A stretch of DNA of 64,000 bases from Clostridium sp. (GTDB lineage Bacteria; Bacillota; Dethiobacteria; Dethiobacterales; Dethiobacteraceae). The notes beneath the pieces were generated by a model. That model did no database searches and was not told the DNA's origin. It worked only from the letters and a program-made list of their open reading frames with translations. Location of the stretch: contig JAGXRV010000071.1 in assembly GCA_018335695.1 (NCBI GenBank), positions 1 to 64,000 on the forward strand, in the 5' to 3' direction. A program made the position numbers and the translations under genes. Position 1 is the first letter of the stretch. Every line of letters starts with the position of its first letter. This document shows, one piece after another, positions 9,852 to 13,986 of this stretch.

Positions 9852-10073
9852 ATGAACATTGATAAAAAATTTGGGGTTGTATTAAAAAAATTGAGAACAG
9901 ACAAAGGGGTTAGCCAAGAGGACTTTGCCCTAAACATTGGCTTGCATAGGACTTATATTAGCCAATTGGAAAGGGGGTTAAAAAGTCCGTCTTTGCGTAC
10001 AATTGAAAAAATATGTAGTGAGTTGGAAATCAGTCCTAGTCTTTTAATGCAAATGATAGAATCGTTAGGCTAG
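9852..10073 (+). CDS. XRE-family controller (C) protein of an R-M-type locus
   Basis: 73 residues, almost entirely one Cro/C1-type helix-turn-helix (SQEDFALNIGLHRTYISQLERG is the recognition region, about residues 20-41). The size and layout are those of controller proteins that time the restriction enzyme after the methyltransferase. There is no convincing ribosome site before the ATG, and the -10-like box is ten bases away, fitting leaderless translation. Palindromic sites related to AATACTATAGTATT lie both upstream and downstream, before the 485-residue gene. The DNA is clearly more AT-rich than the core genes, suggesting acquisition. Confidence 0.8.
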   Translation: MNIDKKFGVVLKKLRTDKGVSQEDFALNIGLHRTYISQLERGLKSPSLRTIEKICSELEISPSLLMQMIESLG

Positions 10074-10121
10074 ATACCGTAGTATTCACCTATATCGTAG
10101 CAATAAGAATACTATAGTATT
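10074..10121 (+). promoter_or_regulatory. Second pair of C-box-like palindromes, before the 485-residue gene
   Basis: A perfect 14-base palindrome AATACTATAGTATT lies at 10108-10121. A degenerate partner, ATAC-4-GTAT, lies at 10074-10085. Their centres are 35 bases apart. They share the ACTAT/ATAGT core of the site upstream of the controller gene, so the same protein probably controls the downstream gene. No clean -35/-10 pair is obvious between here and 10169. Confidence 0.55.
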
Positions 10122-10168
10122 TATCTTCTTGTCAATACACTTCTGAACTACTTTGAAAGGAGTTTTAT

Positions 10169-11626
10169 ATGGGCTTTAAGGAGAACTGGAGTTTTTTAGA
10201 TAAACTATCAATGGGAGCTGTTGGAACAACCAAGGTTCGAGAAGTTCTAAATCGTAACGGTCATAACTTAATTGAACTAGAGCGGCACTCATTAAACAAT
10301 AAAATCTGGCCTACTAAAATCAAACGACTTCGTGTTCCTGATTTGGTATGCCTAAACTGTGGAAAGCGAATTGAATCGAGAGCCAAATCAAACCTTGGAA
10401 TTATCATGTCGGATTCCCCCTGTGTCAAGGAAAGAAAATGGGATTATGGTTTAAGAAACGATGATTTAGTTGCTTTCATATTCTGTTCTAAAGATGGAAG
10501 TGGCTCATGGGTAGCCTCTGATGAAGTGAATCTCTTTACTGTACAAGATTTAAGAAACAGCGAAGAAAACACAAAATTAGGCGCACCCAAATCTGCAAAC
10601 GAAGGTGCTGAGCGAGATAGGAGTTGGAGTTCTTATACCCCAGGTTTTAATGGCTCAGTTTATTCTATCACTGATACACATATAAAATTTATCAAAGAAG
10701 ATGGGGGTTCCTATAATAAGAAAATTGCTGAAGACCATTATGTCCACGTTCAAGTAGGAGAACATTTGGTCTCCAATTCAAAAATTGTACACTCAATTGT
10801 TGAGAATAAAGAGCATGGCCGCTGTGAATCGATTAATTATAACTTTCTAAATGATTTAAACGGACACGATTTAGAAACACAGTATTGCGCTGTAAAAGCA
10901 TTAGGATATTCATCTGAAAATAGACATCTAACAGTTACGGCTTTACGCCAACTTTCAGAACGTTCTAGCGATATGAGAATTAAACTTGAAATCTTATCAT
11001 CTCTTGCCAAGTTAGGCGAAGATGTTTGGAGTCAATTAACTGGTGTACTATCGACTGCTGAAATCAAATTAAAAATGGAATTGGTTTTTATCTTAGGAGA
11101 ACTTATCGATCTTACTCCAGCTCAGGAAATGTTAAAAGGAATTGTAAATAACGAAGCATTAAATAACGAAATTCGTGCTGCTGCAATATGGGTTATGGGA
11201 AATCAAGAATTGCTATTTGACTTTATTCTTAGTAAAACGAGTGACTTAGATACCCTGGTAGCTACCCATGCGTACACAGCAATTGAAAGAGTCATCAAGC
11301 CAAAACATACTGCTTTGCTCTTACAACTATTAGATGGGAACACAAGAAACAGAGATTCAGCCATAAGACTTATCTCAACTAGCTGTAATCTTGACGATAA
11401 CCTTATTGTACATAGATTAATTAGTGAACCAGACAAGGCAAAAAAAAAATCGTTATTATATGCAATTGGAACATCGGATAGAAATCGTTTCCAATACAAA
11501 ATTCAAACAATAGACCCTGACGCTGAAAACACTTTAAGTCTTCTATCAGTCTTTTGGCAGAATAGTAATAGCTGGATAACAAAAGAGATTGAAAATGAAA
11601 TAGAATTTCTAAAAAAACAGAAATAG
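10169..11626 (+). CDS. Candidate restriction endonuclease with HEAT-like repeats (unknown family)
   Basis: 485 residues, not a family I can name. The first ~130 residues contain P57-D58, then E69-S-R71-A-K73, with acidic helix residues E36/E38 before them. This resembles a PD-(D/E)xK nuclease core, though the E..K spacing is not canonical. A C61-x2-C64 pair sits between the two halves, and C85/C106 could complete a metal site. Residues about 225-400 are repeated amphipathic helix pairs of HEAT type, a fold that can wrap DNA (AlkD). Its position between a controller protein with operator-like sites and a DNA methyltransferase makes a restriction enzyme the best inference. The ATG has a strong AAAGGAG site. 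An alternative is a scaffold or defence effector without nuclease activity. Confidence 0.6.
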   Translation: MGFKENWSFLDKLSMGAVGTTKVREVLNRNGHNLIELERHSLNNKIWPTKIKRLRVPDLVCLNCGKRIESRAKSNLGIIMSDSPCVKERKWDYGLRNDDLVAFIFCSKDGSGSWVASDEVNLFTVQDLRNSEENTKLGAPKSANEGAERDRSWSSYTPGFNGSVYSITDTHIKFIKEDGGSYNKKIAEDHYVHVQVGEHLVSNSKIVHSIVENKEHGRCESINYNFLNDLNGHDLETQYCAVKALGYSSENRHLTVTALRQLSERSSDMRIKLEILSSLAKLGEDVWSQLTGVLSTAEIKLKMELVFILGELIDLTPAQEMLKGIVNNEALNNEIRAAAIWVMGNQELLFDFILSKTSDLDTLVATHAYTAIERVIKPKHTALLLQLLDGNTRNRDSAIRLISTSCNLDDNLIVHRLISEPDKAKKKSLLYAIGTSDRNRFQYKIQTIDPDAENTLSLLSVFWQNSNSWITKEIENEIEFLKKQK

Positions 11627-11640
11627 GTCACGGGAGGTGA

Positions 11641-12591
11641 TTATTTCTGTATAAATCCGATTTTTTCTCCATTTATAATTTTTACATACATTTCCTTTAC
11701 ATCATTTTTATCTTGCACAAAACGGCTTATTGAAGCTGCGATATATTCCAAATTTTCTTCAAAAGCAATCCATTGTCTTTTAAGTTCTTCAGCAACTGCT
11801 CCAGTTGTGTTAGAACCAGCAAAAAAATCTAGTACTACATCACCAGGGTCTGTTAGCATCTTAATAAAGAACTCTGGCAACTTAGATGGGAATCGTGCTG
11901 GATGTGCTTTAACGCCTAACAATTTACACAATGCTAAGTAGCGAGAATTACTTTCAGAATTTGCAATCTGTAGGAGATTAGTGGGTATTGCACCTCCATT
12001 GTCTTTACCGAACCCGACCGAAATATCATGACCGGAGGGTCTTTCTTTAGGTGTGTAATATTTTTCTGAATTTTCAATTAATTTTACCATTCTATCTGAA
12101 TATGGCACTAAAACATTTCGCACATCAGCCTTTGGGTTTGGCGTTTTTGAAAACCACCAAACTGTATTAACAGAGTCCTTGACTCTGATTTTTCTTTTAT
12201 TAACCCATTCTATAGGGGAAGGCAGTTTTGATGGATTATGCCAAAAAAATTCTTCTGCTAAATAATATCCTAACTCCTCACAGAATCTAACTAATATCTT
12301 ATAATTATATAAAGACCTGACGGGTATTCCCTTTTGGTATGCTCCACCAAGGTCAAGAACAAAACTTCCAGTATTTTTTAATTTTGGTAGTAATATTTTT
12401 GCAAATCTACTGAGCCAATCTATGTATTCGTCTTGAGGCTTATTACCATATTCTTTTTGACGTTGTAGTGCAAATGGTGGAGATGTTATTGCTAAGTCAA
12501 TGGAATCATCTTCTAGCGCTGGGATAAGTTCAATAGAGTCACCACAGAAACATTTCCCAAGATTTGAATGGTATATTGGCTCATTAATCAT
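11641..12591 (-). CDS. DNA methyltransferase, beta class, N4-cytosine type likely
   Basis: An S-adenosylmethionine-dependent DNA methylase of 316 residues in beta-class order. The catalytic motif IV is TSPPF at about residues 36-40. The SAM-binding motif I is DPGDVVLDFFAGSNTTG at about 249-265, preceded by a HPARFPSKLPEFFIKMLT segment. SPP(F/Y) favours N4-methylcytosine, although some N6-adenine enzymes have it. The central ~120 residues should hold target recognition. I start at the ATG at 12591, after GAGGTG; the GTG three codons upstream lies inside that site. It converges with the candidate nuclease, leaving only 14 bases between stops, so it probably protects the cognate site. Confidence 0.9.
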   Translation of the reverse strand: MINEPIYHSNLGKCFCGDSIELIPALEDDSIDLAITSPPFALQRQKEYGNKPQDEYIDWLSRFAKILLPKLKNTGSFVLDLGGAYQKGIPVRSLYNYKILVRFCEELGYYLAEEFFWHNPSKLPSPIEWVNKRKIRVKDSVNTVWWFSKTPNPKADVRNVLVPYSDRMVKLIENSEKYYTPKERPSGHDISVGFGKDNGGAIPTNLLQIANSESNSRYLALCKLLGVKAHPARFPSKLPEFFIKMLTDPGDVVLDFFAGSNTTGAVAEELKRQWIAFEENLEYIAASISRFVQDKNDVKEMYVKIINGEKIGFIQK

Positions 12592-12723
12592 AAACTGCAC
12601 CTCAAAGAGTTCTTTGTTATTGAGTTCGACAAAAATATTTTTATCCCTGCTATGGTGAGAACATTTGTTCTATTTTCAATAAACTCTACCACCATAAGTA
12701 CGATAGCTTCATTGTTTTGCCCT

Positions 12724-12760
12724 AAAAAAATAGCTGAGCAGCCACCTATGCTCAGCTATT
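12724..12760 (-). terminator. Intrinsic terminator after the 32-residue microprotein gene
   Basis: AATAGCTGAGCA and TGCTCAGCTATT form a perfect 12-base stem with an 8-base loop. On the minus strand a run of seven T follows. It lies ten bases beyond the stop of the small ORF at 12770-12868 and insulates the methyltransferase from upstream transcription. Confidence 0.85.
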
Positions 12761-12769
12761 TGACTTAAT

Positions 12770-12868
12770 TTACTTCTTTAACCAAATTCTAAAAGCCTTT
12801 TTGCCATAGTCACGCGCATAAATACGCCGACCGCAGGGCAGTGTGATATAGACTGTGAATTTCCACAC
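12770..12868 (-). CDS. 32-residue basic microprotein
   Basis: GTG start, 32 codons, ending in WLKK and TAA. The product is basic and aromatic, with a YITLPCGRRIYARDYGKKAF core. AGGGTGA lies five bases before the GTG, and a perfect intrinsic terminator lies ten bases after the stop, so the unit has the layout of a free-standing gene. I recall similarly short YARDYG-type proteins annotated as hypothetical in mobile regions, but cannot verify this here. The function is unknown; placement between the methyltransferase and the small RNA candidate suggests accessory or defence cargo. An overlapping 20-codon ATG frame is possible but reads less like protein. Confidence 0.5.
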   Translation of the reverse strand: MWKFTVYITLPCGRRIYARDYGKKAFRIWLKK

Positions 12869-12902
12869 GCATATCACCCTTTCAGCGAACCAACATCTGA
12901 CC

Positions 12903-12931
12903 TTGCATGGCAGTCTATATTTTGTTATAAT
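12903..12931 (+). promoter_or_regulatory. Extended -10 promoter for a small RNA candidate
   Basis: TTGCAT (12903-12908), a 17-base spacer, then TATAAT (12926-12931) preceded by TGT, giving an extended -10 element. The predicted start is at about 12938-12940. A 10-base inverted repeat, ATATAGACTG (about 12847-12856) and CAGTCTATAT (12911-12920), places one arm within the spacer and could be an operator. Confidence 0.65.
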
Positions 12932-12937
12932 TGGTTA

Positions 12938-13048
12938 CAACGTTTTTTCGGTGGCTAAATTATTTACTGACCACCCCGACTGGTTCGCTCGTAGTCGGGA
13001 AGCAAGACCTATATGTTAAGCCGGTCTACCAACCGGCGAATTTTTTTA
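12938..13048 (+). ncRNA. Candidate ~110-nt structured small RNA
   Basis: The segment runs from a consensus promoter to a perfect intrinsic terminator and has no credible reading frame. Three successive stems are visible: GGTGG/CCACC, CCCGACT/AGTCGGG (11-base loop) and GCCGGT/ACCGGC (6-base loop). The last is followed by a T7 tract at 13041-13047. The RNA ends at the stop of the convergent 238-residue gene, so its last few bases are antisense to that message. It does not match tmRNA, RNase P, 6S, SRP RNA or a riboswitch that I know. A role as a regulator of the neighbouring genes is inference. Confidence 0.5.
13020..13047 (+). terminator. Intrinsic terminator of the small RNA candidate
   Basis: A perfect GCCGGT/ACCGGC stem at 13020-13037, three bases, then seven T. 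Oriented on the plus strand, it ends transcription from the promoter at 12903-12931. The T tract touches the stop codon of the convergent gene. Confidence 0.8.
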
Positions 13049-13762
13049 TTGCCGAGGAATCACGGCAATATCTAAAAACATTTTTAATCGTTCTATGTCT
13101 GTCTTTGCTATATCAGTTGGTATTTTTAAATAAGCAAAGCCACCCTCAGTCATTGCTAATTTTAGCTCCTGATATTTTATATCGCTTGCTACTTCTATTT
13201 TTTCTTCCATATTTGTTACAGGATTTTTGATTCCCACCTGCTCTGATTCGGTGCAAGAATTATCTTTATATGTTACTAATACACCTTCAACTACCGCACC
13301 AGCAAACTCTCCTGATTTTATAAAAGTTTCAGCGGCTTTGTCTTTAACAGTTTTTAAAATATCAAAGTCATTGGTCAAGATATTTCCGAGTATATTAACC
13401 TCTGGCAGGCTTTTTCCAGCAAATCTGTCAACTAACTTTTGGTATAGTGCAGGACTAATAAAACTATCATAGTATAATTTTTTATTATCTTCCTTACTGG
13501 TAGGGTAAAGTATTTTTTTTGCCAAAGGCGTGATAAAGAACTGTTTGTCTTTCTCTTCTAAAAGTCCGAACTGTTTTGAACTGCTAACTTTACTGGTATA
13601 TGAGCGTGTTAAACGATTTGCTATGTTAAGAGCATCAAGTATATTCTGTTCTGAAACGGATTTACCACCTAGGCTATCAACTAGCCTTGTAAAGTTAATG
13701 CACTCTTCAAGGTCATAGTAGGGGTATGGACTACTTTTTTCTTTTTTTTGCATTTTTTCCAT
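13046..13762 (-). CDS. Unknown 238-residue protein, winged-helix-like
   Basis: I do not recognise a named function. Residues about 20-80 look like a winged helix (INFTRLVDSLGG, then ALNIANRLTRSY), ending in FFITPLAKKIL. A second helical part at about 90-150 contains ISPALYQKLVDRF. The C-terminus ends with an LKIPTDIAKTDIERLKMFL segment. That last motif is common at the end of mobile-element and phage regulatory proteins; the layout recalls DUF5343-type proteins, an unverified recollection. The ATG follows AAGGAGGG at ideal spacing. It is AT-rich like the rest of the island. A DNA-binding accessory of the R-M island is possible but not shown. Confidence 0.75.
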   Translation of the reverse strand: MEKMQKKEKSSPYPYYDLEECINFTRLVDSLGGKSVSEQNILDALNIANRLTRSYTSKVSSSKQFGLLEEKDKQFFITPLAKKILYPTSKEDNKKLYYDSFISPALYQKLVDRFAGKSLPEVNILGNILTNDFDILKTVKDKAAETFIKSGEFAGAVVEGVLVTYKDNSCTESEQVGIKNPVTNMEEKIEVASDIKYQELKLAMTEGGFAYLKIPTDIAKTDIERLKMFLDIAVIPRQ

Positions 13763-13986
13763 GGCTACTCCCTCCTTTATATCACAATTTTAGCATTAAA
13801 TGTGCCTATGGTCAATAGGCGAGCTTAATAATATGCCAATACCAATGCTATGCTATGCGCAGCCTTGTATTTATATTTATTTTGACCCTATATTTATTGA
13901 TTTTATCATACCTTTGAATAATCTGCATTCTTTTTTTATAAGCATTAGTAAGCGCATAGCTTAATGCGACCAGGCATCGTCGCTGA

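Follow-up and report, generated by a model that had tools for sequence, protein, structure and literature searches.

Recurrent pairing of a short, probably regulatory RNA with a microprotein gene on mobile elements of numerous bacteria, and signs that the protein is switched off by the RNA

Among the described systems closest to the locus analysed here are those of type I toxin-antitoxin, a class defined in PMC8309996. The RNA-plus-microprotein module reported below resembles these systems in that a small protein gene is joined, on mobile elements, by a short and strongly promoted RNA of the opposite strand, in that its protein is of toxin size (30-54 aa) and under selection, and in that the RNA is sometimes left without an intact protein gene. 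The examples hok/sok, txpA/RatA, bsrG/SR4 and aapA1/IsoA1 represent a class in which a hydrophobic membrane toxin is typical, though not universal. The protein of the module, in contrast, is a basic one, rich in beta structure, in which no membrane segment is evident, while its RNA, encoded in the gap that follows an unrelated gene upstream, mirrors its own promoter. As the microprotein is basic and soluble-looking, the pair is likened to type I systems rather than filed among them, and a toxin/antitoxin action would be compatible with its features. A second parallel is offered by pT181 and pIP501, in which an antisense RNA is encoded opposite a replication leader whose pairings are mutually exclusive. 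The module would likewise have an antisense RNA opposite a leader and two mutually exclusive arm pairings, the latter supported across loci and not in the window alone (the window being the whole stretch of 64,000 nucleotides that was analysed), but it has no replication protein, and the proposed effect would be on translation of the microprotein, by a putative switch. CreTA crRNA-like antitoxins and TldR guide RNAs, finally, carry sequence that matches the promoter of their own locus; the RNA of the module has such a match and is often found near defence genes, but it is without a repeat-like scaffold and no Cas or TnpB partner was found in the neighbours scanned.

Comparison of the window with two congeners established that the segment 9620-14170 (4.5 kb) is a clean island insertion between a hydrogenase cluster and a ClpP-like gene; the segment is absent from both congeners, in which about 125-180 bp lie between flanks of 82-87% identity. 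The island carries restriction-modification-like genes, the gene designated X, the RNA and the microprotein, the restriction-modification-like set (9852-12600) comprising a control-protein-like HTH protein, a 485-aa HEAT-repeat protein and a type II N6/N4 methyltransferase (PADLOC E=3.5e-161). The features of the module and its surroundings are the following.

12724-12761, minus strand: terminator 3′ of the microprotein gene (inverted repeat 12728-12761; minus-strand U-tract read directly)
12773-12868, minus strand: microprotein of 32 aa, VWKFTVYITLPCGRRIYARDYGKKAFRIWLKK (homologues, selection, AlphaFold pLDDT 94)
12884-12892, plus strand: left copy of the mirror repeat, AGCGAACCA, adjoining the ribosome-binding site of the microprotein strand (proposed 3′ arm of the leader hairpin)
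12903-12931, plus strand: promoter of the RNA, with -35 TTGCAT, a 17-bp spacer and extended -10 TGTTATAAT (read directly; spacing kept in homologous loci)
12938-13047, plus strand: predicted small RNA of about 108 nt (sequence, fold, homologous RNAs in at least 53 loci)
12974-13000, plus strand: hairpin 2 of the RNA, stem CCCGACT/AGTCGGG, loop containing GGTTCGCT (fold)
12981-12989, plus strand: right copy of the mirror repeat, TGGTTCGCT, inside the RNA (9-bp helix, p=0.006 as compared to shuffled RNA)
13020-13047, plus strand: intrinsic terminator of the RNA (direct reading and terminator scan)
13046-13762, minus strand: gene X, 238 aa, upstream gene of the proposed X-microprotein operon (no match in Pfam, NCBIfam or PADLOC)
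13787-13815, minus strand: candidate promoter of gene X, TTGACC-17-TAAAAT with TG (promoter scan)

On the plus strand, the -35 hexamer TTGCAT was read directly at 12903-12908 and the -10 of the sequence TGT-TATAAT at 12926-12931, and the start of the RNA is predicted at about 12938, 7 nt past the -10. This promoter was not listed by a simple promoter scan of the window because its -35 is a weak match, while its recurrence in 53 homologous loci argues that it is more than a chance occurrence. The terminator consists of the stem GCCGGT/ACCGGC (13020-13037, loop CTACCA) and a T7 tract at 13041-13047. The U-tract shares bases with the stop codon of the 238-aa gene, which is on the minus strand, and the RNA ends there. 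Besides the terminator, the predicted fold contains the stems GGTGG/CCACC and CCCGACT/AGTCGGG. Direct reading, scan and fold thereby confirmed what the preliminary description had claimed for this stretch, namely an extended -10 promoter, a terminator with T7, three stems and no credible ORF within the RNA. The overall fold of the window RNA is no better than that of its shuffles (z=-1.24; 23/200 shuffles as good). The accompanying claim that this is an undescribed structured RNA also stood, as Rfam gave no match at or above gathering threshold in the window and none at the RNA of 16 related loci. A DNA similarity search of the RNA against 150 relatives, phages and plasmids returned no other copy. 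A perfect 10-bp inverted repeat, which may be due to chance, is shared by the early codons of the microprotein gene (12846-12855) and the spacer of the RNA promoter (12911-12920).

The microprotein gene starts with GTG (12868-12866) and has the Shine-Dalgarno sequence GAAAGGG at 12877-12883. Searches with the window microprotein as a single sequence returned matches in other genomes with E down to 1.4e-8, and the family profile, in which the window sequence is itself included, matches the window at E=6e-16. About 60 homologues were found in Firmicutes, Proteobacteria and phages; they are some 30-54 aa in size, typically about 35, and have the core IYA[KR]DYG, a core that is conserved in the window copy together with the fold. 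A degenerate pattern of the core retrieved 49 stretches from one genome per species and 13 from viral contigs, nearly all of them true homologues, and distant members occur in a Bordetella phage, a Microcystis phage and a Zymomonas plasmid. The family is sporadic, being present in about 2% of the phylum's sampled genomes. The core codons have a dN/dS of about 0.28 and, judged on its homologues and codons, the microprotein is a real gene under purifying selection. AlphaFold predicts a confident, small, beta-rich mini-domain (pLDDT 94). Sequence and fold searches found no relatives among solved structures, while Foldseek (BFVD) matched the fold to the siphovirus proteins A0A8S5TZM6 and A0A8S5NKV4 (TM 0.92-0.95, identity 57 and 32%), which are small, are annotated as uncharacterised and were compared at the protein level. 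Counted from its sequence, the net charge of the microprotein is about +8, a strongly basic one; no hydrophobic segment is present, and the protein looks soluble. Neither the microprotein nor the RNA-protein pair was found in the RNA, protein and literature libraries searched, and a text search for the peptide motif gave no match; the literature was covered by a search of open-access text, and a description elsewhere is possible.

The RNA is probably a short regulatory one, and its pairing with the protein is seen repeatedly on the mobile elements of many bacteria; both the module and its conservation were established by computation. At least 53 loci with a microprotein homologue possess a divergent promoter of the form TTGNNN-17-TANNNT that is followed by a short RNA, and in most of them an intrinsic terminator is clear. 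Across 53 such loci the -35 begins with TT in every case and with TTG in 52, the spacer measures 17 bp in 46, and the -10 begins with TA in 53/53. The promoter score on the RNA strand was 12.1 as compared to 10.2 +/- 1.0 in random windows, the promoter anchors being the best-scoring sites, some of them picked by hand. For 37 RNAs the mean fold z was -3.7 on the RNA strand as compared to -2.2 on the opposite strand. Covariation, which had been named beforehand as a check, was found in the closest-knit group of homologues, where in 21 close Lachnospiraceae-type RNAs the hairpin and the terminator covary (double-change cells 16 as compared to 4.4 shuffled; 97.8% paired) and G-U pairs within the hairpin of the RNA itself are retained on the RNA strand. 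The hairpin at 12974-13000 in the window is the likely counterpart of this covarying hairpin.

A covariance model (R1) built from the Lachnospiraceae-type RNAs was searched blind against 299 genomes of one Lachnospiraceae-type family, in which it matched 8 genomes and the microprotein profile 9, with 6 genomes in common and the two elements always adjacent (p=2e-9, or 6e-8 once the seed genome is excluded, these and the other p values being optimistic because many loci are related). An RNA-type element was present at 9/9 of the microprotein loci. Of the two partners for which co-occurrence with the RNA had been suggested, the microprotein was upheld and the 238-residue protein was not. Among the eight RNA loci, two have no recognisable microprotein and one has a copy frameshifted by one base; these loci (L130, L133 and L132/L141) represent two genomes of the former kind and one of the latter. 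A guard RNA that outlives its toxin would give such a pattern, which is not proof of one. R1 matches its own group and not the window RNA, being too specific for other loci, and the kinship of the window RNA rests on layout and microprotein, from which the membership of the window copy in the module is clear.

On the minus strand of the window, the stop codon of X, the complement of the RNA, the microprotein and its terminator follow each other in unbroken succession. The computed layout of the homologous loci is likewise codirectional: the gene past the RNA end has the orientation of the microprotein in 46/52 loci, as compared to 27/48 for the gene on the other side, and the nearest gene on the X side is opposite in 5 loci, with a sixth (L084) representing a spurious ORF. 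The distance from the end of gene X to the microprotein core has a median of 222 nt, and a terminator-like site on the microprotein strand occurs in just 3 of 46 such gaps (43 without). No promoter above background was detected on the microprotein strand (10.6 as compared to 10.2 random). The X position holds a gene of defence or phage-repressor type, and in most loci this is one for an ImmA peptidase or for defence; 25 of the X-position genes align as ImmA/IrrE-type peptidases with the HExxH motif, while other domains include subtilase plus AAA, CAP12/Pycsar TIR, Fic, ResIII with T5orf172, HARE-HTH, MerR and AbiEii-like AAA. A specific tie of the RNA to the 238-residue gene, which its position had suggested, was consequently abandoned: with ImmA, TIR, Fic, subtilase, MerR and others at the same place, the X-position gene is exchangeable and the 238-aa protein is not a specific partner. 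As a candidate partner it was also rejected on its three distant outside relatives, whose 1.5-kb flanks do not contain the module. At two loci (L041:3582-6877 and L077:2417-5732) the module lies directly 3′ of a subtilase plus AAA ATPase pair.

Each RNA repeats, inverted and in a version specific to its locus, the region of its own promoter, the otherwise free spacer included. In 53 loci the mirror similarity was 35.9 for own RNA-leader pairs as compared to 25.9 for swapped pairs. Each of the two subsets, the Lachnospiraceae-type loci and the remaining 30, gave permutation p<0.0002 by itself. In an aligned subset the mirror helices covary (double-change cells 41 as compared to 13.7 shuffled), with a covariation score of 0.273 as compared to 0.132 shuffled and at most 0.142 in slid controls, so that the computed covariation extends to a second set of helices besides those of the RNA itself. 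The share of microprotein-strand wobbles among the mirror mismatches was 0.705 as compared to 0.537 +/- 0.049 in swapped pairs, with no enrichment of wobbles of the opposite type; on account of this computed one-strand bias, the mirror seems to be under selection for a hairpin and its pairing to be used in a microprotein-strand RNA that spans the gap. The computed blocking of ribosome-binding sites was evident from the pairing of the ribosome-binding region with the 3′ arm (0.53 as compared to 0.38 shuffled; 38/50 loci; p=4e-6). Of the two strands, that of the microprotein gave the better leader fold (p=0.002). Since the 3′ arm pairs both with this region and with the 5′ arm, the same bases can cover the start site or pair upstream. 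The gap-spanning region as a whole has no clear fold advantage on the microprotein strand (22/37), and no match of the RNA elsewhere in the locus, gene X included, goes clearly beyond that to the leader. The RNA-leader mirror was also seen in an alphaproteobacterial locus (L043:2040-2201), a Bordetella phage (L099:4950-5090) and the locus of a distant W-type microprotein (L111).

In the window the mirror helix measures 9 bp (p=0.006), or 11 bp with wobble (p=0.06), while the leader has z=0.1, pairing at the ribosome site is not above control and the full-arm mirror score is below the mean of swapped pairs. The window alone lends weak support to a switch, and regulation of the window copy is inferred from the other loci.

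The mechanism that we favour, with belief and doubt about evenly balanced, is that a cis-antisense RNA controls the two-state leader of a microprotein cotranscribed with an upstream gene, in the manner of type I toxin-antitoxin systems. One minus-strand transcript would comprise gene X, which in the window is the 238-aa gene, together with the microprotein, and the RNA, fired in the opposite direction from a strong promoter in the gap, would stop where X ends. The part of the long transcript that faces the RNA would serve as a 5′ arm able to pair with the 3′ arm just before the microprotein start, and the same 3′ arm could alternatively cover the ribosome-binding site. When the RNA is abundant the 5′ arm would be occupied, the 3′ arm would close the ribosome-binding site and the microprotein would be off, and when transcription through X exceeds the RNA the leader hairpin would form and the microprotein would be made. 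It is the cotranscription, the binding of the RNA to the 5′ arm, the direction of the switch and the toxicity that we infer. Closure of the start site by the RNA is suggested because, if the message reads through, its 5′ arm and the RNA are exactly complementary, and there are signs that the RNA switches the tiny protein off. The RNA is fully complementary to the microprotein message only if that message starts upstream of the gap, and no antisense pairing to a message starting inside the gap was found (z=-0.2). The most likely role of the microprotein would be that of a toxin or growth-control effector on mobile elements.

More tentatively, and as something we consider possible but doubtful, the loci may represent an unnamed widespread class of RNA-controlled microprotein effectors attached 3′ of defence and lysogeny genes. 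Each would serve the defence gene that it follows, whichever that is, as an arm for addiction or abortive infection, in which transcription of the upstream gene would be converted into a tiny effector with the antisense RNA as brake. If true, defence and lysogeny genes that are unrelated to each other have, in many cases and in different phyla, acquired one and the same RNA-plus-microprotein cassette, which would provide mobile elements with a general route for coupling defence-gene transcription to a second, RNA-guarded effector, and would account for the free-standing RNA within a defence island. The pair, of about 250 bp, is readily tested and would add one new family each of RNAs and microproteins.

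Of the rival explanations, the one that survives best, though we judge it unlikely, is that the RNA mimics the microprotein's own leader as a decoy, both starting in the gap and competing for something that binds either of them, such as the basic microprotein. The strongly basic, small beta domain fold of the microprotein is in keeping with this, as is the locus-specific same-sense sequence that RNA and leader have in common (in an earlier locus set, 20.0 for own pairs as compared to 14.5), and the conserved mirror of the -10 could be a promoter for the microprotein instead, in which case the RNA would not overlap the message; a message starting inside the gap would have no antisense match and would make such a decoy more likely. 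However, near-identical microproteins are accompanied by quite different shared sequences, unlike a protein-binding motif, the wobble bias points to pairing on one strand, and the microprotein strand has no promoter above background. We hold it to be rather improbable that the mirror acts at the DNA level, as a quasi-palindrome kept by template-switch copying or as a repressor operator, with the RNA sequence following passively. The mirror has its centre at the start of the RNA and takes in the -10, and phage operators are often locus-specific, but both mechanisms are strand-neutral and neither would prefer one strand, whereas the mismatches favour wobble on one strand and the RNA's own hairpin covaries separately on the other. 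There is a low probability that the act of antisense transcription alone matters, the opposing promoter and terminator blocking read-through from X while the RNA is inert; this would suit the strong conserved promoter and the terminator at the end of X, but the body of the RNA has its better fold on the RNA strand, and its hairpin shows covariation. It is very improbable that the RNA, with its match of about 20 nt to its own promoter region, is guide-like and targets that promoter through a host effector as do CreA or TldR guide RNAs, as no cas- or TnpB-like gene was present among the neighbours scanned, no scaffold is conserved across groups, and the wobble bias fits RNA-RNA pairing on the microprotein strand. 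A single-strand DNA promoter of the Frpo or ssoA type was dropped by reasoning, since the -10 adjoins the loop. Within the RNA promoter, the fourth base of the -35 was observed to be C (TTGC) in 38/53 loci, where the consensus is TTGA, possibly because those bases also serve leader pairing.
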